A DNA stretch of 64,000 nucleotides from NCBI GenBank assembly GCA_019635795.1, contig JAHBYV010000008.1, positions 1 through 64,000 of the forward strand. Direction: 5' to 3'. This stretch comes from Rhizobiaceae bacterium. Its GTDB lineage: Bacteria; Pseudomonadota; Alphaproteobacteria; Rhizobiales; Rhizobiaceae. The notes under the pieces are model-generated. The model searched no databases. It was given only the letters and a program-made list of their open reading frames with translations, and had not been told where the DNA came from. Of this stretch, positions 3,763 to 36,102 are shown one piece after another. A program made the position numbers and the translations under genes. The stretch's first letter is position 1. Each line of letters begins with the position of its first letter.

Positions 3763-6369
3763 TCAGGCCGCCTGTTCGGTGTCTACCGCGCGAGGTTTTG
3801 ACCGGAAATTCAACCGGTCAGAACCCGACGTCACTTTGACCTTCGAGCCGTCCAGAATATCGCCAAGCAGGATTTTCTCTGCAAGCGGGTCCTGAAGCTC
3901 CTTCTGCATCACCCGCTTGAGGGGACGTGCGCCATAGGCCGGATCATAGCCCTTGTTGGCGAGCCATTCGATGGCCTCCTTATCCAGTTCCAGCTTGATC
4001 TTGCGGTCTGCGAGCAGCTTTTCAAGACGCCCGAGCTGGATTTCGACAATCCTGCCCATATCCTGACGGCGCAGGCGATGGAACAGAATGATCTCATCGA
4101 TACGGTTCAGGAATTCAGGCCGGAATGCAGCCTTGACGCGCTCCATCACCAGATCACGCACGGAATCGACATCATCCTCTTCGCCGAGATTCACAAGGAA
4201 TTCCGCGCCAAGATTCGATGTCATGATGATCAACGTGTTGCGGAAATCCACGGTACGGCCCTGCCCATCGGTCAACCGGCCATCATCGAGAACCTGCAAC
4301 AGAACGTTGAACACATCGGGGTGCGCTTTCTCCACCTCGTCGAACAGCACAACCTGATAGGGCCTGCGCCGAACTGCTTCGGTCAGTACGCCACCTTCCT
4401 CATAGCCAACGTAGCCGGGAGGTGCGCCGATAAGCCGGGCAACGGAGTGCTTTTCCATGAACTCCGACATGTCGATCCGAACCATTGCCTGCTCGTCGTC
4501 GAACAGGAAGTTCGCCAATGCCTTGGTCAGTTCGGTTTTGCCAACGCCTGTCGGTCCAAGGAACATGAACGATCCTATTGGCCGATTGGGGTCTTGCAAT
4601 CCGGCGCGGGCGCGACGTACTGCTTTCGACACCGCCTGAACGGCTTCGCCCTGTCCAACAACCCGCTTGCCGATTGCATCTTCCATCTGAAGAAGCTTCT
4701 CGCGCTCACCTTCCAGCATCTTGTCTACCGGTATGCCAGTCCAACGCGACACGACCTGCGCCACATGGTCCGGCGTCACGGTTTCCTCAACCATGCTACC
4801 GCTGGTTTCCTGAGATTCAGATTCGGCAAGTTGCTTTTCCAGTTCCGGGATTTTGCCATAGGCAAGTTCACCGGCTCTTTGGAATTCGCCTTTGCGCTGC
4901 GCTATTGCAAGCTCGTTGCGTGCATCATCAAGCTGCTTTTTCAAATCTGCAGCCCGGCCAAGCTTCTGCTTTTCAGACTGCCACTTGGAAGTCAGGCTCG
5001 CCGATTCCTCTTCGAGTCCGGCAAGTTCCTGTTCCAGCCGAGCCAGACGATCCTTTGAAGCATCATCCTTCTCAACCTTCAGAGCTTCCCGCTCGATCTT
5101 CAACTGCATGATGCGGCGATCGATCTCGTCAAGTTGCTCCGGCTTGGAATCAACCTGCATACGCAGCCGCGATGCAGCCTCGTCCATCAGGTCGATAGCC
5201 TTGTCGGGCAAGAACCGGTCGGCAATATAACGATTGGATAATGTCGCCGCCGACACCAGCGCAGAGTCCGAAATTCTCACCTTGTGGTGCTGTTCATACT
5301 TCTCTTTCAGCCCGCGCAGGATCGAGATCGTATCTTCGACCGTCGGCTCCGACACGAAAACAGGCTGGAAACGCCGGGCGAGCGCCGGGTCTTTCTCCAC
5401 ATGCTTGCGATATTCGTCGAGGGTGGTCGCGCCAACGCAATGCAACTCGCCGCGCGCAAGTGCGGGCTTAAGCAGGTTGGACGCATCCATTGCACCATCC
5501 GCTTTTCCGGCGCCAACAAGCGTGTGCATCTCGTCGATGAACAGAATTATGTTGCCATTTGCTGCGGTGATTTCCGAAAGAACGGATTTCAAACGCTCTT
5601 CAAACTCACCACGATACTTCGCACCCGCAATCAGCGCGCCCATATCGAGTGCGAGCAACTGCTTGTCCCTAAGCGATTCAGGAACGTCGCCATTGACAAT
5701 TCGCAGCGCCAGACCTTCGGCGATCGCCGTTTTGCCGACACCGGGTTCGCCAATCAGAACGGGATTGTTTTTGGTGCGGCGGGACAAGACCTGAATTGTA
5801 CGGCGAATTTCATCGTCGCGCCCGATCACAGGATCAAGCTTGCCTGCCCGCGCATCGGCAGTCAGGTCACGCGCATATTTCTTCAGCGCATCATAGCCTT
5901 GCTCTGCGCCAGCAGAATCTGCCGTGCGGCCCTTTCGGATATCATTGATAACCGTATTCAGTGCCTGCGCCGTGACACCGGCCTTGGCCAGAATGTCAGC
6001 GGTTTTGGCCGATTTCTCAACGGCAAGAGCAGTTAACAAGCGCTCGACCGTAACGAAACTGTCGCCAGCCTTCTTCGCGAGTTCTTCCGCCGTGGTGAAC
6101 ACCTTTGCCAAGGGCTGGGCCAGATAGAGCTGACCATTTCCACCTTCGACTTTCGGCATTGCCTCCAGCGCCGCATCAACGCCAAGCTTGACATCGCGCG
6201 CATTTCCACCCGCCCTCTCAATCAGGGACGCGGCGAACCCTTCGTCGTCGTCGATCAACGCCTTCAATATATGTTCGGGGGTGAATTGCTGGTGATTGCG
6301 GTTGAGTGCTGCCGTTTGCGCAGCCTGTATGAAACCACGGACGCGCTCTGAGTATTTTTCAAGGTTCAT
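3763..6369 (-). CDS. clpB: ATP-dependent chaperone ClpB (disaggregase)
   Basis: Hsp100 hexameric disaggregase that works with DnaK to resolubilise aggregated protein in the cytoplasm. The 868-aa protein shows the N-terminal Clp repeat domain (1-150), AAA-1 with Walker A GEPGVGKT at 207-214, a long coiled-coil middle domain (about 400-530), and AAA-2 with GPTGVGKT near 605. The start chosen is the ATG at 6369 ([10 protein letters not shown]), preceded by GGGAG seven bases upstream. A longer in-frame reading to 6438 only adds non-homologous residues. A heat-shock-type promoter lies at 6464-6493 and an intrinsic terminator follows the stop, so it is a monocistronic heat-shock gene. Confidence 0.98.
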
Positions 6370-7649: not shown

Positions 7650-8534
7650 TTATGCCCGCAAAACTTCGCTTTCTGCCCGTTTAAACACGAGAATACGGTC
7701 GTATTTTGCCAAATCCGAATGCTTTTGCAGCAGGAAAAAGCCTTTATTCGCGAAAATCTCCTCCACCTGATCGGCCTGATCGTACCCGATTTCAACCGCT
7801 ACTACGCCTTCTAATTGAAAATGTGCTAATACACCATGAGCGATTGCGCGATATGCTTCAAGCCCATCTGGACCGCCATCCAAAGCCTTTATCGGGTCAA
7901 AATTCCTGACTTCGGGATCAAGCTGGGGAACAACCTCACTCCTTATATAGGGAGGATTGGAGACAATTACATCAAACTGGCCCTCAACCGCCTCAAACCA
8001 GGAACCCGAGCGCACGTAAAACCGGTCTGACAACCCATGCCTGGCGGCATTTTGCCGAGCAACTTCAAGCGCTTGCGGTGACACATCAACACCTGTTGCA
8101 ACCGCTTCCGGTACTTGTTTCAGCAATGCCAGCGCAATTGCGCCGCTTCCTGTACCGAGGTCCAGGATCGAACAAATTCCTTTATTTTCAACAACTTGCC
8201 GAACAAAAGGCAAGACTGCATCGACGAGGATTTCTGTATCCGGACGCGGCTCCAGTGTCTCCTGCGAAAGCGCGAGCTCAAGTCCGTAGAACTCTCGAAA
8301 ACCGAGAATACGATGAACCGGTTCGCGAGACAGCCGGCGGGCAACTGCCGCTTCAATCGCGTCAATCACATCCGGCGACAGCGTACGTTCCGGCGCAACG
8401 ATAAGGTCCGTCTGTGTCGCGCCTGAAAAATGCTCTACCAGCAGCCTTGCATCAATTTCGGCGTTTGGAATTCCCGCTGCAGCAAGCCTCGACCGAACCT
8501 GCCGCAATGTTGCTGCGAGGCCCTGCTCACCCAT
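7650..8534 (-). CDS. prmC: Release factor glutamine methyltransferase PrmC
   Basis: Uses S-adenosylmethionine to methylate the glutamine of the GGQ motif in release factors, which speeds peptide release. The 294-aa protein has the N-terminal helical substrate-binding domain, the SAM-binding motif DLGTGSG near residue 125, and the diagnostic NPPY at 193-196. Its ATG at 8534 lies inside the 3' end of prfA (8-bp overlap). Enzyme and substrate are therefore translationally coupled, as in many bacteria. Confidence 0.97.
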
Positions 8535-9606
8535 CTGAATTCATGTCGGCAAGAAGCTTTGACTGCTGGTCGGCGATGAGGGCATCAATGATCTCGTCCA
8601 TTTCACCCTCCATCACCCTGTCAAGCTTATACAAGGTGAGGTTGATTCTATGATCCGTCACACGTCCCTGTGGAAAATTATAAGTGCGGATACGCTCAGA
8701 GCGGTCGCCTGAGCCAACCTGCAAGCGCCGTGATTCGGACCGTTCTTCCGCCGCCTTGCCGCGCTCCATATCGAAGAGTCGCGCCCGCAAAATCTGCATG
8801 GCGCGAGCGCGATTCTGATGCTGCGATTTTTCAGCCTGAACCACAACGATCCCTGTTGGAATGTGGGTTATGCGCACTGCCGAGTCTGTCGTGTTGACGT
8901 GCTGGCCGCCAGCGCCGGACGCCCGCATTGTATCAATGCGAATATCCTCATTGCGAATTTCGATATCAACTTCCTCAGCCTCGGGCAGCACAGCAACCGT
9001 AGCGGCTGACGTATGGATTCGCCCGCTCGCCTCGGTCTCTGGCACACGTTGAACGCGGTGCACGCCCGATTCGAACTTGAGGTGCGCAAAAACGCCTTTG
9101 CCGGAAACTGAAGCAATGATTTCCTTGAAGCCACCGACCTCGCCCTCGCTGATCGAAACGACTTCAATGCGCCAACCTTTCAGCGCGGCATAGCGTTCGT
9201 ACATTCGAAACAGGTCGCCCGCAAATAGCGCCGCCTCGTCACCGCCCGTCCCTGCCCGAATTTCCAGAATCGCGTTCTTCTCGTCGGCTGCATCTTTTGG
9301 AAGTAGCAGAATCTGGATGTCGTGCTGCAAAGCCTCTATCCGGCTTTTTACCTCCGGCAGGTCAGCTTCAGCCAAAGCACGCATCTCGGCATCGGTCGAC
9401 CTGTCGGCCAGCATAGCCTCCAGATCGGTCTGTTCCTGCTCAGCACCAAGCAAATCGCGAATCTTTCCGACCATTTCCTGCATGTCGGAATATTCCGATG
9501 CCATTTTTACATAGGCATCAGCCTGCGGGCCGGCTGCCATTTGTGCTTCGAGCATTTCGAAGCGCTTCACGACCTGATCCATTCGGTCACGCGGCAAAGA
9601 AATCAT
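8527..9606 (-). CDS. prfA: Peptide chain release factor 1
   Basis: Reads UAA and UAG stop codons and triggers hydrolysis of peptidyl-tRNA. At 359 aa it has the usual length. The catalytic GGQ lies at 233-235 within GAGGQHVN, and the codon-recognition tripeptide position is PET (189-191) in place of the common PAT/PVT. It lies 9 bp downstream of ptsP and overlaps prmC, so ptsP-prfA-prmC is probably one transcription unit. Confidence 0.98.
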
Positions 9607-9615
9607 ATTTGTTCT

Positions 9616-11886
9616 CTACAAAGGAATCTTGCGGTCGTCGGCAAATGCCTGAAGCAGCGCGCGCATCGGCAAAGTCGCGCTCTTTCCCGAAAGATTCTCT
9701 TCCATGAAGGTTTCGAGCTGCCCCAATGGCAGTTCCAGCATCATGGCCTTAACAGGGCCGATAGCTGCTGGCGACATTGAAATAGCGCGATAGCCCAAGC
9801 CCATCAATGCCATGGCAGAAATTGGTTTCCCGGCAAGCTCACCGCACAAGGTGACGGGCGTATTGTTACGTTTACCCGCATCAGCAATCTGCTTCAGGGT
9901 CCGCAAAAAAGGCACGGAAAGAGGATCAAAGCGATTGGCAAGCGCTGAGTTGCCCCGGTCAGTCGCCATAACGAATTGGAAAAGGTCGTTCGAGCCGACA
10001 GAAACGAAATCAACCGCCTCCATCAATTCGTCCAGTTGCCAAAGCAGCGAGGGAACCTCAATCATTGCGCCGACTTTCAAAGTGTTCGGCAGCATATGAG
10101 CGAAACGTGAAAGGTGACGCACTTCCTTTTCAATGATTTCGCGGGCCTGTGCAATTTCGCCAAGCTCGGTAACCATGGGTAACATGACCTTGAGCTCTCG
10201 CCCCCCGGCAGCCTTGAGCAGCGCCCGAATCTGGGTCTTGAGCAAGCCCGGCCGGTCGAGCGTCAGACGAATCGCGCGCCAGCCAAGCGCCGGGTTCTCT
10301 TCCTGGTGTAAGCCCTTGAAGTAAGGCAGCACCTTGTCACCGCCAATATCGATGGTGCGGAATGTCACCGGCTTACCGCGCGCTGCGTCAAGAACTTCCT
10401 TATACAGCCGCTCCTGCGCTTCCGCGCGCGGGAATGTCGACGCAACCATAAATTGCAATTCCGTGCGGTAAAGCCCTATCCCCTCAGCACCTGATTCGGT
10501 GAGTTGCGGCAGGTCCACGAGCAGGCCGGCATTGACCAGAAGGTCGATCTTCAAACCATCTTTTGTAACGCAAGGCTTGTCGCGCAACTCGCGGTAAAGC
10601 TTCTGCCGCCGCGCGCGGAACCGGACCTTCTCCGCATATGCAAGCTCAACGTCCTGCTGGGGACGCAAATGCACCGTGCCTTCATCACCATCGACGATCA
10701 CAGGGTCGCCGTTTTCCGCCATGGATACGGCACCCTTTACCTGCCCGACAGCCGCGATGCCCATGGCGCGCGCGACGATCACCACATGGCTCGTGGCAGC
10801 ACCATCTTCCAGCACAAGCCCCCGCAGTTTTTCACGCGGATAATCAAGAAGCTCGGCAGCGCCCATCGAGCGCGCGACAATTATGGAATCCTTTGGCAGC
10901 GCCGCGGCGATGTCATCCGGTGCACGGCCCAGCAACTGGCGCAGCAGCCGGTTGCCCAGATCATCAAAGTCGCTCATGCGCTCGCGCAGATAGGGATCCG
11001 TCATGTGCAACATGCGCGCCCGCATATCGCTCTGGACTTTCTCGACCGCCGCTTCTGCCGTCAGGCCGTTATTGATCGCCTCTTCGAGTCTGCGCACCCA
11101 TCCGCGATCATTTGCAAACATCCGATAGGCTTCAAGAACCGCCCGGTGCTCCCCTTCAAAGGCCACGTCGCGACGGGAAAGCATGTCATCAATGGAAAGC
11201 CGCAATGACCCCAAGGCAATTTCCAGCCGCGCCAACTCCTTTTCGCTGTCCTCATTGAACAGGTTGGTCACAACGATGCGCGGCTCGTGCAAAACCACAT
11301 GACCGAGCCCCACGCCTTCATTGAAGGACAAACCGCCGATCGTTACTGGCTTGGATAGATCAAGCTCGACACCGGGACGCGTCAGCCTTGTCAGCCCTCC
11401 GGCCGCAATCATTTCGGCAATAACCATTGCGGTGGTTTCGAGAGCTTCAACCTCGTCTTCGCGGTAGGTGCGCATCGTCCGGTTCTGTACGACCAGAACG
11501 CCGAGCGTTCGACCCGCGCGCAACACAGGAACGCCGAGGAAGGAATGATAGGCCTCTTCACCTGTCTCAGGCAGGTAGGTGAAGGCCGGGTGCCTTTGAG
11601 CATCGGACAGGTTGAGAGGCCGTGCGCTGGCTGCAATTGTACCCACAAGACCTTGCCCAACCTGCAACTGCGCAAGGTGGACCGCGCCAGGGTTAAGACC
11701 TTCCGTCGCATACAATTCGAGGATGGAGTCTGCCCTCAAAACGTATAGCGAGCAAACCTCTGCCACCATATTGGAAGCGATGTCGCGCACGATCCGGTCG
11801 AGCCGCTCTTGCGGCTCTAACGGCTCCGCCATCAGCTCACGGAGCTTTTTCAGCAATACGCGCGGACCACCCGCACCATCGCGCAT
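9616..11886 (-). CDS. ptsP: Phosphoenolpyruvate-protein phosphotransferase PtsP (enzyme I-Ntr)
   Basis: First kinase of the nitrogen-related phosphotransferase chain, passing phosphate from PEP to NPr. The 756-aa protein has an N-terminal GAF domain (about 20-160), the PEP-utiliser N domain, the phosphohistidine loop with H367 in GAATSHVVI, and a C-terminal PEP-binding TIM barrel ending with the catalytic CGEL motif. The start at 11886 (MRDGAGG) has GGAAGG seven bases upstream. An ATG two codons earlier at 11892 would lie too close to that site. Adjacency to lysC and prfA is a common Hyphomicrobiales arrangement. Confidence 0.96.
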   Translation of the reverse strand: MRDGAGGPRVLLKKLRELMAEPLEPQERLDRIVRDIASNMVAEVCSLYVLRADSILELYATEGLNPGAVHLAQLQVGQGLVGTIAASARPLNLSDAQRHPAFTYLPETGEEAYHSFLGVPVLRAGRTLGVLVVQNRTMRTYREDEVEALETTAMVIAEMIAAGGLTRLTRPGVELDLSKPVTIGGLSFNEGVGLGHVVLHEPRIVVTNLFNEDSEKELARLEIALGSLRLSIDDMLSRRDVAFEGEHRAVLEAYRMFANDRGWVRRLEEAINNGLTAEAAVEKVQSDMRARMLHMTDPYLRERMSDFDDLGNRLLRQLLGRAPDDIAAALPKDSIIVARSMGAAELLDYPREKLRGLVLEDGAATSHVVIVARAMGIAAVGQVKGAVSMAENGDPVIVDGDEGTVHLRPQQDVELAYAEKVRFRARRQKLYRELRDKPCVTKDGLKIDLLVNAGLLVDLPQLTESGAEGIGLYRTELQFMVASTFPRAEAQERLYKEVLDAARGKPVTFRTIDIGGDKVLPYFKGLHQEENPALGWRAIRLTLDRPGLLKTQIRALLKAAGGRELKVMLPMVTELGEIAQAREIIEKEVRHLSRFAHMLPNTLKVGAMIEVPSLLWQLDELMEAVDFVSVGSNDLFQFVMATDRGNSALANRFDPLSVPFLRTLKQIADAGKRNNTPVTLCGELAGKPISAMALMGLGYRAISMSPAAIGPVKAMMLELPLGQLETFMEENLSGKSATLPMRALLQAFADDRKIPL

Positions 11887-24946: not shown

Positions 24947-25873
24947 TCAGGGCTTTGAAGATTCCAGCCCTTCGACGGACTGCTTCAATTGCGGATCATC
25001 AATCTCAATCTTTGCTGATTCGCGCAGCCCCTTGATCAGCTCAAGATATTTGTCGCGCAAGACCAGCGAACGTACTTGCTCCTTCACCTGCTCAAAAGCC
25101 GGCGGCTGCTTAGCGCGTTTGTCTTCAACCTTGACGACATGGAACCCAAACTGCGTCTGGATCGGTGTCTTGGTGTAGGTGCCAGGGGCCAGTTCAAATG
25201 CAGCCTTCTCAAATTCCGGCACCATCTGGCCCGCGGAGAAATAGCCCAGATCGCCACCATTAGCGCCCGAACCGGGGTCTTGCGATTTTTCCTTGGCGAT
25301 TTCCTCAAAGCTCTTGCCGCCATCAAGATCCTTGATAATCGCCTCGGCTTCCTCCTTGGTCTTCACCAGAATATGACGCGCGCGAACCTCGTTCTCGGGC
25401 TTCTGAGCCGATATTTCCTTGTCATAACGAGCGCGGATTTCATCGTCAGTTATCTTTGCCTGCACTTCCTTATCAATCACGGCCGCATGAAGTGCGCGTT
25501 GTTGAAGGAATGCCAGGCGCCGCGCCATATCCGGATCCTTGTCGATTCCCTTGGCAGCGGCCTCAGCGGCCATGAGACGAATTTCTATGACTGCCGAAAG
25601 GGCTGCAGCGCGCTTTTGCTCCTCAGGCAAACGGGCGAACTGCTGATCAAGGTCCTCAATTGCCAGATCAAGGTCTGCCTCAGTGATTGGCTGTCCATTA
25701 ACAGTAGCCAGAACCGTATCGGGAGCGGGCTTGGCGGCTGGAGCAGCAGCTTCCGCTGCACGAACTTCAGCCGGTTTGTTATCTTGTGCATATACTGAAA
25801 ACGCGGCGCAGGATGAAAGCAGCGCGGCAAAAGAAAGCCGGATCAAAGATGCGCGGCGGTGGAACATTGACAT
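24947..25873 (-). CDS. Peptidylprolyl isomerase, parvulin (PpiC/SurA) type, periplasmic
   Basis: Helps fold secreted and outer-membrane proteins. The 308-aa precursor has a signal peptide (cleavage near residue 29, after VYA), an Ala/Pro-rich linker, a SurA-like N-terminal helical region (about 50-150), and a parvulin domain (about 160-260) with RARHILVKT, GGDLGYFSAG and FGFHVVKV. The ATG at 25873 has GGAG eight bases upstream. It diverges from secA, and the ppiC-secA pairing is typical of this order. Confidence 0.94.
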   Translation of the reverse strand: MSMFHRRASLIRLSFAALLSSCAAFSVYAQDNKPAEVRAAEAAAPAAKPAPDTVLATVNGQPITEADLDLAIEDLDQQFARLPEEQKRAAALSAVIEIRLMAAEAAAKGIDKDPDMARRLAFLQQRALHAAVIDKEVQAKITDDEIRARYDKEISAQKPENEVRARHILVKTKEEAEAIIKDLDGGKSFEEIAKEKSQDPGSGANGGDLGYFSAGQMVPEFEKAAFELAPGTYTKTPIQTQFGFHVVKVEDKRAKQPPAFEQVKEQVRSLVLRDKYLELIKGLRESAKIEIDDPQLKQSVEGLESSKP

Positions 25874-25969
25874 CAAAGTAACTCCGATGGAATTCGAGCG
25901 GGCAGCTATCTGATGAAAGCAGCTTAAAATGTGGCAGAATCGCAGGCGCAGCAGTGTTTAGTTGCCACG

Positions 25970-25998
25970 TTGACATCGCCTCTCCCCCCTCTTATCTG
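25970..25998 (+). promoter_or_regulatory. secA: Candidate housekeeping promoter of secA
   Basis: TTGACA at 25970-25975, a 17-base pyrimidine-rich spacer, and TATCTG at 25993-25998. Transcription would begin about 125 bases before the secA ATG, leaving a long leader. The -35 is perfect and the -10 is fair. Confidence 0.45.
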
Positions 25999-26127
25999 TC
26001 CACCACCTTTGCGTCCAGAAGCGATTTTGGAACGCATGTCGTTTTGCATCAGGTTCGTTGCTTAAAATAGTCCGCAATGGACCTACCCGGTTCCCCGCCG
26101 GAGAGAGCCAACTGAAAGGGCCATTGC

Positions 26128-28833
26128 ATGGTCAGCCTGGGCAATCTCGCTCGCAAGATATTTGGGTCCGCCAACGACCGCCGTGTGAAGGGGCTGCGTC
26201 CCCGGGTCGAGGCGATAAACGCGCTGGAGCCAGAAATCTCCGCGCTCTCGGACGATCAGCTCCGGGCCCGCACGGATGAATTCAAGAAGCAGCTCGCCGA
26301 TGGCGTTGCACTGGATGACATTCTGATCCCGGCATTCGCCACTGTTCGAGAGGCCGCCAAGCGAGCGCTCGGGCTTCGCCCGTTCGACGTTCAGCTCATG
26401 GGCGGTATGGTCCTGCATGGTGGGAATATTGCCGAGATGCGTACCGGCGAGGGCAAAACCCTTGTGGCAACCCTGCCCGTCTACTTGAATGCCCTCGCAG
26501 GAAAAGGCGTGCATGTCGTTACTGTAAACGACTATCTCGCCCGCCGCGACGCCGAATGGATGAGCCGCGTTTACGGATTTCTGGGTCTGACGACCGGTGT
26601 TATCGTGCACGGTCTGGACGATGACGAACGACGCGCCGCATATAACTGCGACATCACTTATGCGACGAATAACGAGCTCGGTTTCGACTATCTGCGCGAC
26701 AACATGAAGTACGAACGCGCGCAAATGGTGCAGCGCGGTCACTACTTCGCCATTGTGGACGAGGTGGACTCGATCCTTATCGATGAGGCCCGCACCCCGC
26801 TTATCATTTCCGGCCCGCTCGAAGACCGCTCGGAAATGTACAACACGGTTGATGCGCTGGTAATTAACCTTCAGCCCGAAGACTACGAGGTTGATGAGAA
26901 GCAGCGTACCGCCATTTTCACCGAGGCGGGAACAGAGAAGATGGAAAACCTGCTCAAGTCAGCAGGTCTTTTACGCGGTGAATCGCTCTATGACGTGGAA
27001 AACGTGGCGATGGTCCACCACGTCAACAATGCGCTGAAAGCGCACCGTCTCTTCCAGCGCGACAAGGACTATATTGTTCGCAACAATGAAGTTGTAATCA
27101 TTGACGAATTTACGGGCCGAATGATGCCGGGCCGCAGATACTCGGAAGGCCTGCACCAGGCACTTGAGGCGAAGGAACACGTCGCCATCCAACCTGAAAA
27201 CCAGACCTTGGCCTCTATCACGTTCCAGAACTATTTCCGTATGTACAATAAGCTTGCGGGCATGACCGGCACCGCGCTGACGGAAGCGGAAGAATTCGCC
27301 AATATTTACAATCTCGGCGTTACTGAAATTCCGACGAACCTGCCTGTGCAGCGCATCGACGAAGATGACGAGGTTTATCGTACGATCGAAGAGAAATATC
27401 GCGCCATCGTTCGCGATATTCGCGAAGCCAGCGCCAAGGGCCAGCCCATTCTGGTCGGAACGACTTCAATCGAAAAATCCGAGCATCTCGCCGAACGCCT
27501 CCGCACGGAAGGCATCAAGGACTTTCAGGTTCTGAACGCCCGTTATCATGAGCAGGAAGCGGCAATCGTTGCGCAAGCAGGTCGCCCGGGCGCTGTTACC
27601 ATCGCTACCAATATGGCGGGACGTGGCACCGATATTCAGCTCGGCGGTAATGCGGACATGCGCATTGCACAAGAACTGGCTGACATGCCAGAGGGGCCGG
27701 AACGCGACGCCAAGGAAAAGGCTATCCGGGAAGACATTGCCCGGCTGAAAGAAAAGGCACTGGCAGCCGGTGGCCTATACGTTCTCGCCACCGAGCGCCA
27801 CGAATCGCGGCGTATCGACAATCAGTTGCGTGGCCGATCAGGTCGCCAGGGTGATCCGGGTCGATCCAAATTCTATCTGTCCATTCAGGATGATCTGATG
27901 CGGATCTTTGGATCGGACCGCATGGACGGAATGCTGCAAAAGCTGGGTTTGAAAGAAGACGAGGCCATTATCCACCCGTGGATCAACAAGGCCCTCGAAA
28001 AGGCCCAGAAAAAGGTCGAGGCGCGCAACTTCGACATCCGCAAAAACCTGCTGAAATATGACGATGTGATGAACGATCAGCGCAAAGTCGTTTTTGAGCA
28101 GCGCATCGATCTAATGGATGGCGGCAGCCTGACCGAAACGATCGCTGAAATGCGTCAAGACGTAGTGGATGACCTGATCGCTCGCTACATTCCCGAAACT
28201 GCATATGCAGAGCAGTGGGACATTCAAGGCTTTAAGCAAGCGGTTCTGGAACAGCTCAACCTTGACCTCCCTGTCGATGAATGGGCGAAAGAAGAGGGGA
28301 TCGCTGATGAGGAAATTCGCGAGCGCCTGACCAATGCAGCAAACGCTGCGGCAGAAGACCGGGCCAAGCGGTTTGGCCCCGAAATTATGACCTATGTCGA
28401 GCGGTCGGTCGTGCTTCAAACGCTAGACCAGCTCTGGCGCGAACATCTGGTCAATCTCGACCACTTGCGTTCTGTTATCGGCTTCCGGGGCTATGCTCAG
28501 CGTGACCCGCTGAACGAATACAAATCCGAATCATTTGAGATGTTCCAGGCCATGCTGAACAATCTGCGTCAGCTTGTTACGTCTCAATTGATGCGCGTGG
28601 AGATTGTAAGAGAAGCCGCTGAAGCCCCTCCTCCACAAGCGCCGCAGACATTTGGCCATCACCTCGATGCCACCACCGGCGAGGACGATTTCGGTGAAGC
28701 GGCCAACGAGGCTGCTGTTGATCCGGCACAACGCGACCCCAACGACCCAAAAACGTGGGGCAAGGTGGGGCGCAATGAAGCATGCCCTTGCGGCTCAGGC
28801 AAAAAGTACAAGCATTGCCACGGGACGTTTTAA
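26128..28833 (+). CDS. secA: Preprotein translocase ATPase SecA
   Basis: Motor that drives unfolded preproteins through SecYEG. The 901-aa protein carries Walker A (MRTGEGKT), the [11 protein letters not shown] box, the MAGRGTDI helicase motif, and a C-terminal zinc SEC-C tail ([14 protein letters not shown]) for SecB binding. An AAGGG lies seven bases upstream of the ATG. It is flanked on both sides by polysaccharide/sorting genes whose products are Sec substrates or membrane proteins. Confidence 0.98.
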
Positions 28834-28852
28834 GGTCGCACAGTTAGGAATT

Positions 28853-29332
28853 TCAGCCGGATAGAGCTGCCAGCTCTTCGGCTGGAATTGCGTCTGGTGC
28901 GCAGTTCTTGTCGAACAGTATTGCCCGAACTTTGACTGGTGGCGCGTCAATTCCCGCATAGCGCTTCAACCGGTTCAGATAGTGATGCAGTAACGGCCCT
29001 ACCAAGGGCTGTTCAGGCTGCAAGACGCCGCCTGCTGAATATTGGACGAGGCGATCAGCCCCTGCCCATTTGACGATATTTCGGTGCCACCCTTGCGGCG
29101 AAACATTCGCTATTTGCATGCGGCAATCGGGCCGGGTCCCGGTGACCCATTTTGGGTCTGCATTAGGTGCTGCAAATTCGATAACGAAACCGTGATGCTC
29201 CAGAAGAGAAACGATGTCGTCCTGCTCGGGATACACAAGCGTGTCATTCGCGCGACTACTGGCGTTCACTTTGAGGCCAAGGCTGATGGCACCCACGAGC
29301 ACCAACGCTACACTAAGCGCGATGCGCGACAT
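28853..29332 (-). CDS. Exosortase-associated membrane-anchored periplasmic protein
   Basis: I do not recognise the family. The 159-aa product has one N-terminal hydrophobic anchor (about 5-22) and a periplasmic domain with two Cys, one in RPDCRMQI (near 70) and one in DKNCAPDA (near 144), plus a WHRNIVKWAG segment. Its start overlaps the exosortase 3' end by 20 bases, so it is translationally coupled. In classical exosortase loci this slot is held by EpsI (DUF3485). This protein has similar size and topology but no clear EpsI motif, so I call it an analogue by position only. Confidence 0.7.
   Translation of the reverse strand: MSRIALSVALVLVGAISLGLKVNASSRANDTLVYPEQDDIVSLLEHHGFVIEFAAPNADPKWVTGTRPDCRMQIANVSPQGWHRNIVKWAGADRLVQYSAGGVLQPEQPLVGPLLHHYLNRLKRYAGIDAPPVKVRAILFDKNCAPDAIPAEELAALSG
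28855..28883. other. Hairpin at the convergent ends of secA and the exosortase unit
   Basis: Nested inverted repeats (AGCCG/CGGCT outside, AGAGCT/AGCTCT inside, 3-base loop) sit 21 bases past the secA stop. No T-run follows on either strand, so it is at best a weak terminator or an mRNA-end protector. Confidence 0.35.
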
Positions 29333-30170
29333 CAGGCGTTATCCAGCGAAAATAAATTGACAGAACCGCTATGATCGAGAGCCATTCAGCAGCAGACGCG
29401 CCGACGGCCCCATGTATGAGATCATAGTATGTGGGGAAAAACGCAATTGCGCTCATGCGGGTAACGTTGATTGCGACCGTAGCAACGCAGGCCGCGACAA
29501 CGGCCTTGAGAACATTCAACGACCAACTGCGATTGAATATGCTCATGAAAAACACACCGCACAGCAAGGCCAGTGAAACGTTCGTCAGGGATGAACAGGC
29601 AGGCTCCAGAAAGAGCACGCCAGTGCCATCCCAGAATGGGATCGTGTTCCCCGAAGAGCCGGTGCCGACGACCATTCCCACCATCTTGGCATCTATCGAA
29701 AGGATAGTGTTACTCATGCTGGCAAACAGAAGACGCGCCCAAAGCATGGGAATGGTCATTCCAAACATAAGGACGCCAGCGCGCCGCATCGGATCGCCGG
29801 AAGTGCTCGTCCACACAAGATAAGCCGCGAGTATTGCAAGCCCCAGCCAGCTGGCGGCGGACATTGGAAAAATGAAGCCTATGCAGGCGATGGATGCCAG
29901 CCAGAAATCCATTGGGCGGGCGCGCTCATGCCCTGCCTGCCGCAGCAGCCAGAATACGCCACCAGCAGCAACCCAAATAAGCGCGCTCACACCAAACGTA
30001 TTGAAGAAAGCGCCAATCAGCCCGCTTTCGCCTATAGCACTCAGCGCCCGCTCAGCAATTCCGTTTGCAAAACCGACCGCGAAAAGAGCGCCGTACAACT
30101 GTGCCCGCGTCACGCGCCAAGCCTCAGAACGTTCCATCGCCCCCGCGACGGAAATCGATTGGGCACCCAT
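29313..30170 (-). CDS. Exosortase/archaeosortase family transpeptidase
   Basis: Multi-pass inner-membrane enzyme expected to cut a C-terminal sorting signal and pass the protein on to an acceptor. The 285-aa reading (start ATG 30170, MGAQSIS) has about eight hydrophobic helices. The three family residues are present in order: Cys192 in EPACSSL, Arg238 in NVTRMS, and His253 in LIHGAVG. The usual ACSG is ACSS here. A GTG at 30194 abuts a hairpin and an ATG at 30137 is also possible, so the start is uncertain. Upstream is the gene for a 68-aa protein with a matching sorting-type C-terminus. The subfamily could not be assigned. Confidence 0.88.
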   Translation of the reverse strand: MGAQSISVAGAMERSEAWRVTRAQLYGALFAVGFANGIAERALSAIGESGLIGAFFNTFGVSALIWVAAGGVFWLLRQAGHERARPMDFWLASIACIGFIFPMSAASWLGLAILAAYLVWTSTSGDPMRRAGVLMFGMTIPMLWARLLFASMSNTILSIDAKMVGMVVGTGSSGNTIPFWDGTGVLFLEPACSSLTNVSLALLCGVFFMSIFNRSWSLNVLKAVVAACVATVAINVTRMSAIAFFPTYYDLIHGAVGASAAEWLSIIAVLSIYFRWITPDVAHRA

Positions 30171-30187
30171 GGCCGCATCCCGCCTGC

Positions 30188-30225
30188 AAAACACTCACGC
30201 CACAGCATTCAAGCATGTGGCGTGA
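30188..30225 (-). terminator. Attenuator-like hairpin between the small sorted protein and exosortase genes
   Basis: A perfect 10-bp inverted repeat (TCACGCCACA at 30195-30204 and TGTGGCGTGA at 30216-30225, 11-base loop) lies 22 bases past the stop of the 68-aa gene on the minus strand and is followed by GTGTTTTG. It could stop most transcripts or protect the upstream message, giving much more small protein than exosortase. Confidence 0.55.
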
Positions 30226-30247
30226 AAACACTCAACTGTGCCGGCAA

Positions 30248-30454
30248 TTACTTCTTCTTTGCGCGACGGAAAAGAACGTAGCCACCAGCGATTGCCAGCG
30301 CAGGCAAGCCGAGGCCAAGAATCGGTCCAGGAGCTGAATGCGAAGAGCCTCCGCCGTCACCTTCCTTTGGCGGAACAAGACCAGCAGCGTTGGCGGGAAT
30401 GATATATGAAAGGCCCAAAATGGCCGCGCAGATAATTGGTTTCGTAAATTGCAC
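30248..30454 (-). CDS. Small secreted protein with exosortase-type C-terminal sorting signal
   Basis: The 68-aa product is almost all targeting signal: a signal peptide (1-23, cleavage after ANA), an exposed piece of about 18 residues rich in Gly/Ser with EGDGGGSSHS (31-40), a PGP motif at 42-44 followed by LGLGLP, a hydrophobic helix (45-62), and a basic end RRAKKK (63-68). Motif, helix and basic tail form the tripartite plan of PEP-CTERM-like sorting signals, although the motif is not PEP. The start is GTG at 30454 with GGGG six bases upstream. It is first in the exosortase unit and is the obvious substrate candidate. Confidence 0.8.
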   Translation of the reverse strand: MQFTKPIICAAILGLSYIIPANAAGLVPPKEGDGGGSSHSAPGPILGLGLPALAIAGGYVLFRRAKKK

Positions 30455-30753
30455 CTCTAACCCCTTCCTGAGACATGTTTTGGCACAGATGAACCTTTAC
30501 ACGCGCGCGCGCAAAGCTGCATTACATCCGAGAGTGTAATATGGATTATGCGTTTGGCGTAGTGCAAAGTTCCTATATGGCCTCAAGTAACACCCATGAA
30601 TGCCAAAAGCATTGCTATCGTCTGTTCAATTTTAGCTGATTGGAGAATTTTTGAAATGCCGACATCGGGATAGATATGCCCTTGAATATATTGAAAAACA
30701 GCCATTAAGCACGCCGGATACAATTCGGGCAAATCGATGCGGAGATTATTTAA
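30455..30753. promoter_or_regulatory. 299-bp divergent regulatory region
   Basis: AT-rich gap between the exosortase unit (minus) and the flippase gene (plus), containing no coding sequence I trust. It must hold promoters for both directions. A dyad ATTACA-8-TGTAAT at 30519-30538 is the best operator candidate. Confidence 0.5.
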
Positions 30754-32163
30754 TTGCGATTTTCTGCCGCTACCCTTGCGGATCGGATACTTCCATCGGG
30801 CTTGAGGGAGCGGGTGCGGCCCTCACTCAATCGCATTGATTTGGCGCTATTTAGCAATACTGAACACGCAAAAGCTGGCCGAATGTCGATTGCGGCGTTC
30901 CTGATTCGCATCGTGAGCGCACTTCTTGCGTTGGCGATGCAGATTTTGCTCGCGCGCTGGATGGCCAGTTTCGAATACGGCATATTTGTTCTTGTATGGA
31001 CCACCGTGGTAATTGGCGGATCGATAGCCAGTTTTGGCTTCCACACGTCCGTGATTCGTTACGTCTCGGAATATCGCGAGCGAAGCATGTTGGCCGAGCT
31101 GCAAGGCGTCTTGCGAACGAGCCGGATTTTCACCCTTCTCGTTTCAACATTTCTGGCCGCACTAGGCATCGGTAGCGTTTGGCTGCTCCAGTCCCGGATC
31201 GAGGCATATTATATCGTACCCCTCTATCTCGGTATGATATGCCTCCCGATGATTGCGCTTGGCGACGTGCTGGAAGGCATTGCGCGTGGTAATTCGTGGG
31301 CATACTGGGCGCTGGGTCCGATCTACCTCCTACGCCCGGCGCTCATTCTTGCGTTCATGGCGATTGCCATTTGGCTGGGCTATCCTGCAGACGCCCCAAC
31401 CGCGATGACTGCGGCGATATTGGCCACCTATCTGACAACACTTGCACAACTTGGCGGCGTAAATTTCAGTCTTGGCAAGACCATGGATCACGCCGCACCG
31501 GCCTTTCGCCTTCGCGAGTGGATAGCAGTTTCACTTCCAATCTTTCTGGTGGAGAGTTTTTTCTTCCTGCTCACGAACATGGATGTGCTCATGGTCGGCT
31601 ACTTCCTGGAGCCGGATGATGTGGGCGTTTACTTCGCCACCGTCAAAACCCTTGCGCTGGTTCATTTCGTCTATTTTGCGGTAAAGGCAGGAGCCGCCCA
31701 ACGCTATGCGCAATTCGCGCACACCGACCCGGCACAACTTGCCCGTTTCGCACGTGACACGGTTACGTGGACGTTCTGGCCCTCACTGGCATTGGCGGTT
31801 GTAGTTCTTTTAATCGGCAAACCGCTGTTGATGTTGTTCGGCAATGAATTTGCAGCGGGATACCCGCTTCTGTTTGCGCAGATGATTGGCGTCCTCGCCC
31901 GCGCGTCGGTTGGCCCTGCCGAAAGCCTGTTGACGATGAGCGGAAATCAGAAAGCCTGCGCTCGGGTCTATGGCGTAACATTGGCTCTCAACATCGCACT
32001 CTGCATCATTCTCATTCCCAAATTCGGCCTGTGGGGTGCTGCAATTGCATCCGCCTTGTCGATGATGTTTGAAGCCGCAGCGCTTTCATGGACGGCATGG
32101 AAGCAGCTCGGCGTTGCCATGACGATCTTCCTGCCTGCAACATTCAGGGGCAAAGACATATGA
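30754..32163 (+). CDS. Oligosaccharide flippase (Wzx-like, MOP superfamily)
   Basis: Expected to flip lipid-linked sugar repeat units across the inner membrane. The 469-aa protein has a 40-residue cytoplasmic lead and then a dozen or more hydrophobic helices. Typical MOP features are the early FLIRIVSALLALAMQILLARWM helix, the mid-protein SLPIFLVESFFFLLTNMDVLMVGYFL repeat, and the IPKFGLWGAAIASALSMM helix near the end. The start is TTG at 30754 with GGAG nine bases upstream. It overlaps the next gene by four bases (ATGA) and is divergent from the exosortase unit. Confidence 0.9.
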   Translation: MRFSAATLADRILPSGLRERVRPSLNRIDLALFSNTEHAKAGRMSIAAFLIRIVSALLALAMQILLARWMASFEYGIFVLVWTTVVIGGSIASFGFHTSVIRYVSEYRERSMLAELQGVLRTSRIFTLLVSTFLAALGIGSVWLLQSRIEAYYIVPLYLGMICLPMIALGDVLEGIARGNSWAYWALGPIYLLRPALILAFMAIAIWLGYPADAPTAMTAAILATYLTTLAQLGGVNFSLGKTMDHAAPAFRLREWIAVSLPIFLVESFFFLLTNMDVLMVGYFLEPDDVGVYFATVKTLALVHFVYFAVKAGAAQRYAQFAHTDPAQLARFARDTVTWTFWPSLALAVVVLLIGKPLLMLFGNEFAAGYPLLFAQMIGVLARASVGPAESLLTMSGNQKACARVYGVTLALNIALCIILIPKFGLWGAAIASALSMMFEAAALSWTAWKQLGVAMTIFLPATFRGKDI

Positions 32164-33416
32164 GACCCGCTCCGCTCCTGAGCGCCGACGCACGCTCCGC
32201 ATCTTCAAGGCGAAAGCCGCAAATCGGATGGACGCAGCACCATGCGTCACCGCAGCCCGACAGAACACCAAGGCGCCTTGCGATTTACGATGCCAGATCC
32301 GGCTTCGATATGGTCGAAGAGCTTGAACACCTGTGCAATCGCACCATCGAGCCGAATATTTTCTTCAGCCCGCCATTTCTGGCTCCGGCAATGCCGCGCG
32401 TGGAAGATCGGGACGTGCTGCTGGCCGTTATACGCGACGGGAAGGAAGATAATGATCGTGTGCGGCTTGTGCTCCCGTTCACCGTTCAGCCATCCCCAAC
32501 CGGCATCGGGCCTTCAATCATGCGCACCTGGGCTCATGCGTTCGGATTGCTCGGAACGCCATTGGTTGATCGCGACGACCCCGCTGCCGTGCTGGATGAC
32601 TTCCTTGGAATGGCAAGGCGCGCTCGCCTCAAGCTGCCAAGTGTGATGGTATTGCCGAACATAAGGCTCGATGGTCCGTTTGCAGGTCTGTTGCGCACAG
32701 TAGCAGATCACCGCTCCCTACCCTGGCATGTCATCGGGCGCGAACAACGCCCCATACTTAACAGTCATCTTTCTGGCGACGATTACCTCAAACAATCGCT
32801 CCGCCCGCACCACGCGCGCGAATACAGGCGGCTTCGCAGACGCCTTGAGGAACAGGGCACATTGCAGCACTGCGTAGCGCGCAGCCCTGTTGAGGTTCGC
32901 AGGGCAATGGAGGATTTTCTTGCGCTGGAGGCTGCCGGCTGGAAGGGCAAACGTCGCACCGCCCTGGCAATTGACAGGCTGGTTGCCGCATTCGCCCGGG
33001 AAGCGGTTCAAAATCTCGCAGAGAGGGATATGACCCGCGTCCATACTCTGACGCTGAACGGCAAGGTGGTGGCAGCGCTGATCGTTTTCGTGGAAGGCGG
33101 CACAGCCTATACGTGGAAAACCACATTCGACGAAAACTTTTCGGCCTTTTCCCCCGGAACACTGCTCATGATTGAAGTGACGAAGCAGCACCTGCCGGAT
33201 CCCAATATTGAAATCACCGATTCTTGCGCAATCCCGAACCACCCTGTCATGAGCAGGCTTTGGACGGAGCGTCAGGTGATGGGGACGATTGTCATGGGCC
33301 TGACCCCCAAGGCAGAGCGCGCAGCCAAGAGAGTTTCGACCGAGCTCCACCTTTATGGCGAAACGCGGGAGGTTGCCCGCAAGGTTCGCAAACGCATAAG
33401 CAAGGTCACGGGGTAG
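32160..33416 (+). CDS. FemAB/BioF2-like (CelD/BcsL-type) acyltransferase
   Basis: The 418-aa protein belongs to the GNAT-related BioF2/FemAB group, seen in exopolysaccharide and exosortase clusters. It has a variable N-terminal third, the YLKQSLRPHHAREYRRLRRRLEEQG segment, then FLALEAAGWKGKRRTAL, and the ALIVFVEGGTAYTWKTTFDENFSAFSPGTLL core that forms the acyl-CoA fold. The ATG at 32160 overlaps the flippase stop (ATGA), so they form a coupled pair. Longer in-frame starts lie inside the flippase gene. The stop touches the stop of the convergent rhomboid gene with no base between. Probable role: acylation or aminoacylation of a polysaccharide (inference). Confidence 0.85.
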   Translation: MRPAPLLSADARSASSRRKPQIGWTQHHASPQPDRTPRRLAIYDARSGFDMVEELEHLCNRTIEPNIFFSPPFLAPAMPRVEDRDVLLAVIRDGKEDNDRVRLVLPFTVQPSPTGIGPSIMRTWAHAFGLLGTPLVDRDDPAAVLDDFLGMARRARLKLPSVMVLPNIRLDGPFAGLLRTVADHRSLPWHVIGREQRPILNSHLSGDDYLKQSLRPHHAREYRRLRRRLEEQGTLQHCVARSPVEVRRAMEDFLALEAAGWKGKRRTALAIDRLVAAFAREAVQNLAERDMTRVHTLTLNGKVVAALIVFVEGGTAYTWKTTFDENFSAFSPGTLLMIEVTKQHLPDPNIEITDSCAIPNHPVMSRLWTERQVMGTIVMGLTPKAERAAKRVSTELHLYGETREVARKVRKRISKVTG

Positions 33417-34187
33417 CTATTGTCTGCCCCAGCGCGGAGGTGGTGCGGCAGGAACCGGCCTCACCGCACTGCGATGTTCAAGCTCGACAGCTTGCGGGGT
33501 AACAATTCCCTGATCGAACAGGGGGACGCCGCGCCGCCGCAGCACCAGAACCAGCACCGCACCGGCAAGAATGCCGCCAATATGAGCCGCAAAGGAAACC
33601 TGTTCCTCGCCACCCCAAAGGAACATGCCGAACTGCATCCCAACCCAGCCCGCCAACGCAAACCATGCAGGTATACGCAAGGGAAGTCTGCCAAAGGCAA
33701 GCACCCAGACTTTGACCCGAGGATGGAGCATCAGGTAAGCGGCAACGATGCCGGCTATTGCCCCGGAAGCGCCAATCAGCGGAATCTGGGAGTCTGGTAT
33801 GAAAAGTCCGTGCACCAAAGCACCTGCGGCGGCACAAACCAGATAAAACATCAAATACCGGAAATGTCCCAGCGCATCTTCCACATTATCGCCGAACACC
33901 CATAAGAACAGCATGTTGCCGCCGAGATGGAATATGTCGCCGTGAAGAAATGAATAGGTGAGATAGGTCATATCCTCCGGCACAATCACGAAGTTTGGCG
34001 GAAGTTCAGCCGTGTCGAAGACCACGGACGGAATGTAACCGAGCCCCAACACAGCAGCCTGCACAAACTGGTCTGATTGGAAATTGACGAGAAGAAATAC
34101 CAGAATGTTCGCCACGATCAGACCAATCGTGACGTACTGCAATCTTATGTAGCGCAGGCTGTTCGCGTCATGCAGCGGTATGAACAT
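33417..34187 (-). CDS. Rhomboid family intramembrane serine protease
   Basis: The 256-aa protein has six or seven membrane helices. Catalytic Ser is in GASGAIAG (near 140) and His in SFAAHIGGILAG (near 203). The HxxxN stretch FHLGGNMLFLWVFG of the oxyanion helix is present. It is a standard rhomboid protease, not the shortened rhombosortase type. The C-terminus has a soluble Pro/Arg tail. It is convergent with the acyltransferase gene, and its substrate is unknown. Confidence 0.92.
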   Translation of the reverse strand: MFIPLHDANSLRYIRLQYVTIGLIVANILVFLLVNFQSDQFVQAAVLGLGYIPSVVFDTAELPPNFVIVPEDMTYLTYSFLHGDIFHLGGNMLFLWVFGDNVEDALGHFRYLMFYLVCAAAGALVHGLFIPDSQIPLIGASGAIAGIVAAYLMLHPRVKVWVLAFGRLPLRIPAWFALAGWVGMQFGMFLWGGEEQVSFAAHIGGILAGAVLVLVLRRRGVPLFDQGIVTPQAVELEHRSAVRPVPAAPPPRWGRQ

Positions 34188-34268
34188 CGTGTTCCGGCCT
34201 GCGTTTCATCATTGATCGTTAGGAGCTGAATTTTCCTGCGAATGTGCGGGCGGTGTTCAGGCGTCAAA

Positions 34269-34850
34269 CTATCGGTTCTTTCCCGGAACCCATAACACAT
34301 CGCCCTTTCCATTGTCATTGGCCGCGCGGGCGGCGACAAAGAGCAAGTCCGAAAGACGGTTGATGTAGCGAAGCGCGGCCGGGTTTACGTGCTCGCCCGG
34401 CTGGCGCGCCAACGCCACCATCAGCCGCTCGGCGCGGCGCGCTATAGTGCGGGCAAGATGAAGGGCTGCAGCCGCCGCAGTGCCACCATTCAGAACAAAC
34501 GAGCGCAACGGCTCCAGATGATCGTTCAACGCGTCGATATCGCGCTCGATCCGCTCGACCTGCGTATCAATGATCCGCAGCGGCTCGTAATCCAGCGGCT
34601 TGCCTGTGTCCGGGGTGCAAAGGTCCGCGCCAAGATCGAACATATCGTTCTGTACGGAACCAAGCATCTTATCGATTTGCGGGTTCGTATCTGCCAGATG
34701 AACCCTTGCCATGCCGATGCAGGCATTTGCCTCATCAACCGTGCCGAAAGCCTCAATCCGCAAATCGTCCTTTGTGCGCCGTGATCCGTCGCCCAGCCCC
34801 GTGGTGCCGTCATCACCTGTACGCGTGTATATTTTGTTGAGCCGAACCAT
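34269..34850 (-). CDS. Cob(I)alamin adenosyltransferase, PduO type
   Basis: Adenosylates reduced cobalamin to coenzyme B12. The 193-aa helical protein carries the ATP-binding N-terminus TRTGDDGTTGLGDG and the RTIARRAER helix that completes the site between subunits. GGAGG lies five bases before the ATG. The HIG1 gene is 9 bp upstream on the same strand, a pairing I consider typical for this order. Confidence 0.94.
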   Translation of the reverse strand: MVRLNKIYTRTGDDGTTGLGDGSRRTKDDLRIEAFGTVDEANACIGMARVHLADTNPQIDKMLGSVQNDMFDLGADLCTPDTGKPLDYEPLRIIDTQVERIERDIDALNDHLEPLRSFVLNGGTAAAAALHLARTIARRAERLMVALARQPGEHVNPAALRYINRLSDLLFVAARAANDNGKGDVLWVPGKNR

Positions 34851-34859
34851 AAATTCCTC

Positions 34860-35051
34860 CTACTGGCGCGTCGCCCAAACCGCGAGCAATATGAACACCA
34901 GCGCGAAGAACTGGAGAACAATACGGGCCTGCATCAACTTGTTAGATGTATTGCCCGAGCCGCCTTTCATGAGGTTCACGAGCCCTCGTATCAAAACAGC
35001 CACCACAGCAACCATGAACACGATGGCAATGATGTTGAACGTCGTAGACAT
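34860..35051 (-). CDS. Small twin-helix membrane protein (HIG1 domain)
   Basis: The 63-aa protein has two membrane helices (about 5-25 and 42-60) joined by a short basic loop with MKGGSGNTSNKLMQAR, matching the hypoxia-induced HIG1 fold found in respiratory supercomplex factors. The ATG at 35051 is preceded by AAGGAAG. A longer in-frame TTG at 35141 adds only non-homologous residues. Confidence 0.85.
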   Translation of the reverse strand: MSTTFNIIAIVFMVAVVAVLIRGLVNLMKGGSGNTSNKLMQARIVLQFFALVFILLAVWATRQ

Positions 35052-35241
35052 TGGGAAACTTCCTTGAAGCACGGCGGGGTTGCACCCTTGATAACCTCGA
35101 ATGGATTGATGCAACAGTGAAAAACACGCAATGCATATCAATCCTGTTCACGCCGAGGGTTGCCAACCGCGCCTCGCACAACCCATATGGACGAGATGAT
35201 AAGGGGGTCGATCACCGGATCGGCAGTCGGAATCGGGTTTG

Positions 35242-36102
35242 ATGCTGCGCAAAATCGTTGCCCTGAAACGTGTGGTCTACGACGCGGTCGGTCATTTCAA
35301 CTATGATGACGGCTGGTCCATGGCGAGCCATCTCGCCATCAGCGCGCTCATGGCCCTGTTTCCGTTTTTGATCTTCGCGACGACGCTCGCCAGCTTTCTC
35401 GGTGCTCAGGCTTTCGCTGAAACAGCCGTCCATCTGGTGTTCGATACATGGCCCGCACAAATTGCTGAGCCAATTTCGCGCGAAGTTGTGAACGTACTTA
35501 CCATCCAGCGCGGCGACCTTTTGACTTATGGCGCTGTACTTGCAGCCTTTTTTGCATCAAACGGAATTGAGGCGCTGCGCACATCGCTGAATCGCGCATA
35601 TCGCGTCACCGAGAATCGCTCGATTTTTTGGCGCAGGGCACAAAGTCTTGTCTTTGTGCTCATCGCCACCATCAGTTTCGTCGCCATAAGCGTGCTGCTG
35701 GTGTTCGCTCCCATCATCGAGCGCCTGCTCGAACAAAAAATCGAATGGGTCAGGCCATATCTGGGAACCATTACGATATGGCGCTACATCATTGCTTCAG
35801 TCGTTATTGTTGTGGGGCTGATTGCAGTGCATTTCTGGCTTCCGGCAGGCAGGCGCCGTTTGGCGGAGATCGTTCCCGGCTTGATATTCACTCTTGTGGG
35901 CTGGCTTGTCGGCTCGACGGTATTTGCCACCTATCTGGATAATTTCTCGTCCTACGTGACGACCTATGCCGGGCTTGCCTCGATCATGATTGCCATCGTT
36001 TTCCTGTACATCGTTTCGGCGATTTTTATTCTTGGTGGCGAACTGAATGCTGCTATCAGCCGCTACCTTGAAGCGCGGGCGCGCGTTCCGTCTGAAGCCT
36101 GA
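35242..36102 (+). CDS. YihY/BrkB family inner-membrane protein
   Basis: The 286-aa protein has six membrane helices and the family pattern: an SMASHLAISALMALFPFLIF entry helix, ASNGIEALRTSLNRAY, and the FATYLDNFSSYVTTYAGLASIMIAIVFLY ending. It is not an RNase despite the old name; its function is unclear and may be transport. The ATG at 35242 follows an in-frame TTG at 35239. Its end overlaps the convergent EamA transporter gene by 40 bp. Confidence 0.9.
   Translation: MLRKIVALKRVVYDAVGHFNYDDGWSMASHLAISALMALFPFLIFATTLASFLGAQAFAETAVHLVFDTWPAQIAEPISREVVNVLTIQRGDLLTYGAVLAAFFASNGIEALRTSLNRAYRVTENRSIFWRRAQSLVFVLIATISFVAISVLLVFAPIIERLLEQKIEWVRPYLGTITIWRYIIASVVIVVGLIAVHFWLPAGRRRLAEIVPGLIFTLVGWLVGSTVFATYLDNFSSYVTTYAGLASIMIAIVFLYIVSAIFILGGELNAAISRYLEARARVPSEA

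Follow-up and report, generated by a model that had tools for sequence, protein, structure and literature searches.

The closest described counterpart of the locus presented here is the PEP-CTERM/EpsH system (XrtA with EpsI). In its published account (PMC1569441), the enzyme is polytopic and carries the motifs Cys, Asn-x-x-Arg and His-x-x-x-Gly, the cysteine of EpsH standing in a Cys-x-Gly motif, and EpsI is encoded directly downstream of the exosortase or fused to it. The substrates of that model have a signal peptide, a C-terminal proline motif, a helix and a basic tail; the genes have an exopolysaccharide neighbourhood, and unlinked substrates have a common upstream DNA element. Apart from the Cys-x-Gly motif and EpsI itself, the same traits are found in a set of three minus-strand genes lying within 64,000 nucleotides of a Rhizobiaceae bacterium (assembly GCA_019635795.1, contig JAHBYV010000008.1, positions 1 to 64,000; hereafter, the window), which encode a 68-residue protein with a C-terminal tag, an exosortase and a membrane-anchored partner. 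We consider it probable, at roughly 0.8, that these genes form a self-contained exosortase sorting system acting as proposed below. Compared with the described system, the tag reads PGPxxGxGLP instead of PEP, and the partner is not detectably related to EpsI and has an invariant pair of cysteines. An earlier note, made from the letters of this DNA, had pointed to an exosortase system whose signal is not PEP and whose partner is unfamiliar; our neighbourhood and model searches agree with it. Neither the PGP tag nor the partner is described among the literature matches listed on exosortases and CTERM signals, a collection in which subscription journals are little covered.

Three genes, a tag and an enzyme branch

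The 68-residue protein (30248..30454, minus strand) starts with GTG and is composed of a signal peptide, a Gly/Ser-rich stretch of about 17 residues, the PGPxxGxGLP motif, a hydrophobic helix and an RRAKKK end, its tail being APGPILGLGLPALAIAGGYVLFRRAKKK. If cleavage of the signal peptide follows ANAA, a site placed by eye, exactly 17 residues precede PGP. No Pfam or NCBIfam family model reaches its cut-off for this protein. Its stop codon is separated by 53 nucleotides from the GTG of the exosortase gene (29313..30194, minus strand), which encodes 293 residues, or 285 from an internal ATG 24 nucleotides inward. The motif residues are Cys200, Asn243-x-x-Arg246 and His261-x-x-x-Gly265 in the GTG count; Cys192, Arg238 and His253 of the earlier note follow the ATG numbering and correspond to Cys200, Arg246 and His261. 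The partner gene (28853..29332, minus strand) overlaps the exosortase gene by 20 nucleotides and encodes 159 residues, with an N-terminal membrane anchor (residues 4-22), a presumed periplasmic domain, and the cysteines Cys70 and Cys144. The five reading frames first drawn for this locus, these three and two divergent neighbours, are all present. Ratios of nonsynonymous to synonymous substitution (dN/dS) against two species of the genus are 0.12 and 0.12 for the 68-residue protein, 0.08 and 0.08 for the exosortase, and 0.10 and 0.12 for the partner, rough values because dS is high (1.3-2.5); they show purifying selection on each of the three.

Three genomes of the genus were compared, the window's included (the congeners), and searches covered an order sample of 297 Hyphomicrobiales genomes and a class sample of 240 genomes, with three genomes in both (G000, which is the window's, G042 and G082). 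The tag follows the pattern [AV]PGPxxGxGLPxL...RRR and has no model of its own. We modelled it from seven tails of five genomes and one plasmid (model A3) and, for use on the class sample, from 28 aligned tails (A6), of which 27 have PGP and one has PVP. Genomes G155, G188 and G266 contributed no sequence to A3, and G392 contributed none to A6.

Strong tag matches (expectation value E ≤ 1e-4, A3) number 20 in the order sample and are confined to 6 of the 297 genomes (6, 5, 3, 3, 2 and 1 each). These six are exactly the order-sample genomes that have an exosortase of the 14-row branch to which the window's enzyme belongs (see below), and three of them lie outside A3. The best tag score is at least 35.1 bits in each of the six, against a maximum of 22.4 bits among the other 291; the genomes absent from the model reach 43.4 (G188), 40.7 (G155) and 35.1 bits (G266). 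At the looser limit of E ≤ 0.1, 72 of the 297 genomes had matches. The window's 68-residue protein scores 71.6 bits, a value that is not independent because its tail is in the model. When A6 was applied to the class sample, strong matches were limited to the window's own genome and G392 (45.8 bits), whose tag gene lies directly ahead of an exosortase of the same branch; three other genomes had weak matches of 21.7-22.7 bits. The earlier note had treated regular occurrence of such proteins apart from the exosortase as evidence against a sorting system; this check did not refute the reading, for strong tags and the branch coincide genome by genome.

The tagged open frames span 61-324 residues, their starts uncurated, with the tag at their end and, in most, a signal-peptide-like beginning by eye, as in PEP-CTERM systems. 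Among ten tagged proteins from five genomes, none reaches a Pfam cut-off or bears a CTERM family name; in NCBIfam, the score of one (L097) is exactly the LPXTG-anchor cut-off (15.9) and the other nine stay below, and one scores 21.8 bits against a cut-off of 29 for the Npun_F0296 exosortase-dependent surface domain. No PEP-CTERM tag model rises above its cut-off for the tagged proteins scanned, the longer LEVG-family model giving 14 bits against 100. The 68-residue protein shows a weak likeness of tail layout to GVDTG-CTERM (NF058571, 17.3 bits against a cut-off of 29) and to the LPXTG anchor (TIGR01167, 14.9 bits against 15.9), but its motif differs from both. LPXTG is the signal of sortases, another kind of enzyme.

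Genome searches for the enzyme used a profile of 17 rows, which found 14 exosortases in 12 of the 297 order genomes and matched 7 of the 240 class genomes beyond the window's own. These 14 loci and the seven class genomes, together with the two other congeners, three plasmid records (Microvirga ossetica and two Rhizobium) and one locus reached through its partner (G150), make up the 27 exosortase loci considered here; a scan of named genomes with the exosortase gave one relative. In a midpoint-rooted tree to which ten same-class exosortases fused to EpsI were added, the 27 split from these ten at 100/100, and the window's exosortase falls within a branch of 14 rows with support of 98/96; four rows outside this branch have long ends and uncertain positions. 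Genomes or records carrying the tag are the source of 12 of the 14 rows, and the exosortase has a tagged gene ahead of it in all 6 rows of the window's sub-branch. Across the 27 aligned exosortases the only invariant residues are Cys200, Asn243, Arg246 and His261, Gly265 being nearly so. Two genomes have two exosortases of the branch apiece, G155 (loci L017 and L021) and G230 (L020 and L022).

The window's exosortase passes TIGR04178, the signature of the exosortase/archaeosortase superfamily (24.9 bits, cut-off 23), as do two of six branch relatives (L017, 30.1; L030, 23.6); the outgroup L024 scores 24.4. Of the named NCBIfam Xrt and Art subfamily models, none attains its cut-off with this enzyme or with the seven relatives scanned; the best subfamily score of the window's enzyme is 13.7 bits against 150 (cyanoexosortase A). 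A check against exosortase models thus gave the result expected from the earlier note, in which no named subfamily seemed to fit. A search of solved structures gave no credible relative (best E 1.9 for the exosortase and 0.042 for the partner).

Several points weigh against a self-contained sorting system of this kind. Four of the six branch relatives fall below the TIGR04178 cut-off (L022, 22.8; L019, 19.3; L029, 17.9; L016, 17.5), and PF09721 gives the window's exosortase 24.9 bits (E 1.5e-5), under its gathering score of 25.7, with no match at the limits used in L029 (the fused Microvirga protein) or L106. The catalytic cysteine stands in Cys-Ser-Ser instead of the Cys-x-Gly given for EpsH, a hydropathy count gives 6 strong membrane segments where at least 8 are expected, and AlphaFold models of exosortase and partner, built on two-row alignments, have a mean predicted local distance difference test score (pLDDT) of 37 and 49, too low to be of use. 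The order-sample searches scored at most 27 candidates per genome for the tag and at most 7 for the exosortase; the exosortase of G150 was overlooked there and later met beside its partner, so that, with candidates scored in part, absences are not certain. The strong-tag threshold was set after the score gap was visible. The small chance of the three non-model genomes coinciding, 1/C(294,3) = 2.4e-7 with genomes taken as independent, speaks for the system but is only indicative because genomes share ancestry. Lastly, the two Rhizobium plasmid loci have no tagged protein within 20 kilobases, a search that did not extend to the chromosomes; a plasmid tblastn with one tag returned its own source only, at E 0.03, and is too insensitive to count.

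The partner protein and EpsI

Downstream of the exosortase, all 27 loci have a partner-type frame, anchored at its N-terminus and containing two cysteines. It was identified by profile in 22 (E ≤ 1e-3; 12 of these built the profile) and by position and Cys pair alone in five; the G150 locus was itself found through the partner search, and several starts were picked by eye. Cys70 and Cys144 are the sole invariant residues, and in Microvirga ossetica partner and exosortase are fused in a single frame of 479 residues. The partner profile matches 11 of the 297 order genomes, nine of them at E ≤ 5e-14 and all nine beside an exosortase of the 27-member family; the weak match in G150 (9e-5) also adjoins an exosortase, and one in G212 stands at 0.003. 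Family scans reached no Pfam cut-off in 11 partners and no NCBIfam cut-off in 5.

It is conceivable that the partner is a highly divergent EpsI (DUF3485), and the whole a diverged XrtA type and not a separate branch. We consider this unlikely. The two proteins occupy the same place, downstream of the exosortase or fused to it (as given for EpsI in PMC1569441), and the partner has an N-terminal anchor and a small domain, yet comparison of their profiles found no relation (P-values 0.13-0.75) under conditions in which the controls joined readily: halves of the partner family at 5e-15, halves of the EpsI family at 5e-18 and both exosortase kinds at 4.5e-8. The partner was rejected as a detectable EpsI on this ground, and the 100/100 split between the 27 exosortases and the ten EpsI-fused ones under the midpoint root argues in the same direction. 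The EpsI model PF11984 has no match in the window's genome, in a search whose controls were also silent, and matches 15 of 190 class genomes.

Flippase, acyltransferase and exopolysaccharide context

On the plus strand, divergent from the module, lie a Polysacc_synt flippase gene (30754..32163) and a gene for a GNAT/FemAB-like acyltransferase of 418 residues (32160..33416), the two overlapping by ATGA at 32160-32163. The opposite edge of the gap holding the module is formed by a plus-strand gene (26128..28833) that we take to be secA from its sequence. The five genes from the partner to the acyltransferase could be read as one exopolysaccharide locus, in which the product of the 68-residue protein would be attached to the polysaccharide exported by the flippase. 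The arrangement is identical in all three congeners and other branch loci sit among glycosyltransferase and Wzc-type genes, but the distribution of the flippase makes this reading improbable. A flippase match (E ≤ 1e-20) is present in 71 of 101 family genomes. In 20 of these, taken from the best-scoring, about 7 kilobases were read on the upstream side (4 kilobases in one, at a contig end): secA lies upstream on the same strand in 14, within about 600 bases of the flippase in five of the 14 as judged from coordinates, and an exosortase, partner or tag in 0 of the 20. Conversely, only the two other congeners carry a flippase or acyltransferase of the window's type among 16 exosortase loci compared.

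The most economical account has the three genes either inserted between secA and the flippase or deleted from that site, and it makes adjacency a weak argument for a joint function with the flippase pair. We rejected both neighbours as members of the system, the flippase being widespread and the module absent there in 20 of 20, and the functional pairing with them proposed in the earlier note is not supported. Its wider link to exopolysaccharide fares better for the enzyme branch elsewhere: among selected neighbour genes scanned against families, exopolysaccharide-type genes lie close to the exosortase at 8 of the 11 loci that the branch has outside the genus. In L030 (Rhizobium sp. WL3) the exosortase is in an annotated exopolysaccharide cluster, and glycosyltransferase, Wzc/Wzz-type, mannose-nucleotide or sugar-epimerase genes occur at L016, L017, L018, L019, L021, L031 and L120; no such gene was among those scanned at L020 and L022 (one neighbour apiece) and L029 (four).

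The acyltransferase scores 541.9 bits, under a cut-off of 775, with NF047385, a model named after the Brucella effector BspF. Its coupling to a flippase common beside secA suggests an envelope role for its gene lineage. A general rhomboid protease gene follows at 33417-34187 on the minus strand. Its presence recalls the rhombosortase/GlyGly-CTERM system, but it was discarded as a rhombosortase (25.8 bits against a cut-off of 84, a weak similarity), and no GlyGly-CTERM model is among the matches of the 68-residue protein.

Probable substrates in the genus and a proposed mechanism

Membership of the enzyme among exosortases is matched by tripartite C-terminal tags encoded in its genome, two in each of the three congeners, one gene adjoining the exosortase and the other unlinked. 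The single tiny substrate of the earlier note has to be replaced by this pair. In the window's genome the second tag lies at G000:C12:183121-183213 (minus strand), and the gene, coding for about 124 residues from the likely ATG, is by our reading of the frame a solitary one, situated upstream of an oppositely oriented MazG-like gene. The second tagged proteins of the two other congeners are Gly-rich. That the 68-residue protein might be a small membrane protein with no role in sorting, near an exosortase by chance, agrees with its short mature part and with the lack of a family model reaching cut-off but is very improbable, since its tail motif is that of the other 27 rows of A6, strong tag copies are found only where the enzyme branch occurs, a tagged gene stands ahead of the exosortase throughout the sub-branch, and the second tagged gene has a similar box ahead of it.

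This box belongs to the upstream side of both substrates. A stretch is conserved upstream of the exosortase-side substrate gene in all three genomes, and CCMAWYGCATAR (30546..30557, minus strand, about 90 base pairs ahead of the 68-residue start) is found once in the 64-kilobase window, at that promoter. The pattern CCMAWYGCATAA, drawn from the conserved stretch, lies ahead of all three second genes at offset 132-133 of 230 bases with 0, 1 and 2 mismatches, a total as low in 0 of 3000 first-order randomisations, in a test that was not blind: one second-gene region had been viewed before the pattern was chosen, and the pattern was shortened after all had been viewed. An initial, longer pattern had an exact match in 0 of the 3 second-substrate loci. 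Judging from these upstream regions, the two unlinked substrates are probably co-regulated. The box differs from the sigma-54 promoter element that goes with PrsK, PrsR and PrsT in the XrtA system. Consensus scans gave no sigma-70-like promoter in 28700-31000; the two terminator-like sites they gave there are fewer than in shuffles, and neither is at a module junction.

Between the substrate stop and the exosortase start there is also a strong predicted RNA hairpin (30194..30226, minus strand), with z of -2.4, -5.5 and -3.2 in the three species. Its outer stem is the same in the window and both other congeners, the consensus scan does not call it a terminator, and covariation is not shown with three sequences; no Rfam family was found in 25000-36000. 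The hairpin may give rise to different transcript levels of substrate and exosortase.

For cleavage, cut site, partner role and product fate, we argue by analogy with the PEP-CTERM/EpsH model (PMC1569441). The signal peptide would export the substrate, and the C-terminal helix and basic tail would hold it in the inner membrane with PGPxxGxGLP at the periplasmic face. The exosortase cysteine would then attack near PGP, remove the tail and hand the remainder to an acceptor molecule or to water. From its place next to the enzyme in the membrane, the partner might assist by docking substrate or acceptor, or by keeping the enzyme competent. In the genus the substrates would be two unlinked, probably co-regulated Gly-rich proteins, with a peptide of about 17 residues as the expected product of the 68-residue one. 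Product size and a constant partner with a Cys pair are what would make this system special relative to that model. A bolder idea, for us a long shot, is that the exosortase of the genus and sub-branch acts as a machine that releases or conjugates peptides, the short peptide left by the adjoining dedicated substrate being freed or linked to a glycan or lipid of the envelope, with the Cys pair of the partner directly involved, for instance as thioester carrier or as redox switch for the cysteine of the enzyme.

The acceptors of exosortase substrates and the roles of small accessory proteins are, to our knowledge, open questions generally, and one enzyme with one constant partner and an adjoining substrate of 68 residues is near the smallest test case for exosortase action. 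The tag would also add an unrecognised surface-protein signal to genome annotation: two of the surveyed genomes hold five and six strongly tagged proteins, and none of the ten scanned is named as CTERM.

Two exosortases from outside the branch are accompanied by small proteins whose tails resemble the tag without matching it, APAPLLGVGLP (G501) and GAPAPLLASTL (G025), and the small-substrate layout may therefore extend beyond the 14 rows. Small neighbours with such other motifs (APAP, PLPG) are seen in L127 (G025) at 4268-4576, L121 (G501) at 1455-1748 and L025 (G039) at 8227-8535. A weak tag-like match of 19 bits (G295:C62:25-108, L150) lies in a short frame where the contig ends, immediately ahead of that genome's distant exosortase. 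On the Microvirga ossetica plasmid (L029), two tagged small proteins are encoded on opposite strands at 9228-9497 and 9655-9948, just upstream of the fused exosortase-partner gene and with transposase genes nearby.

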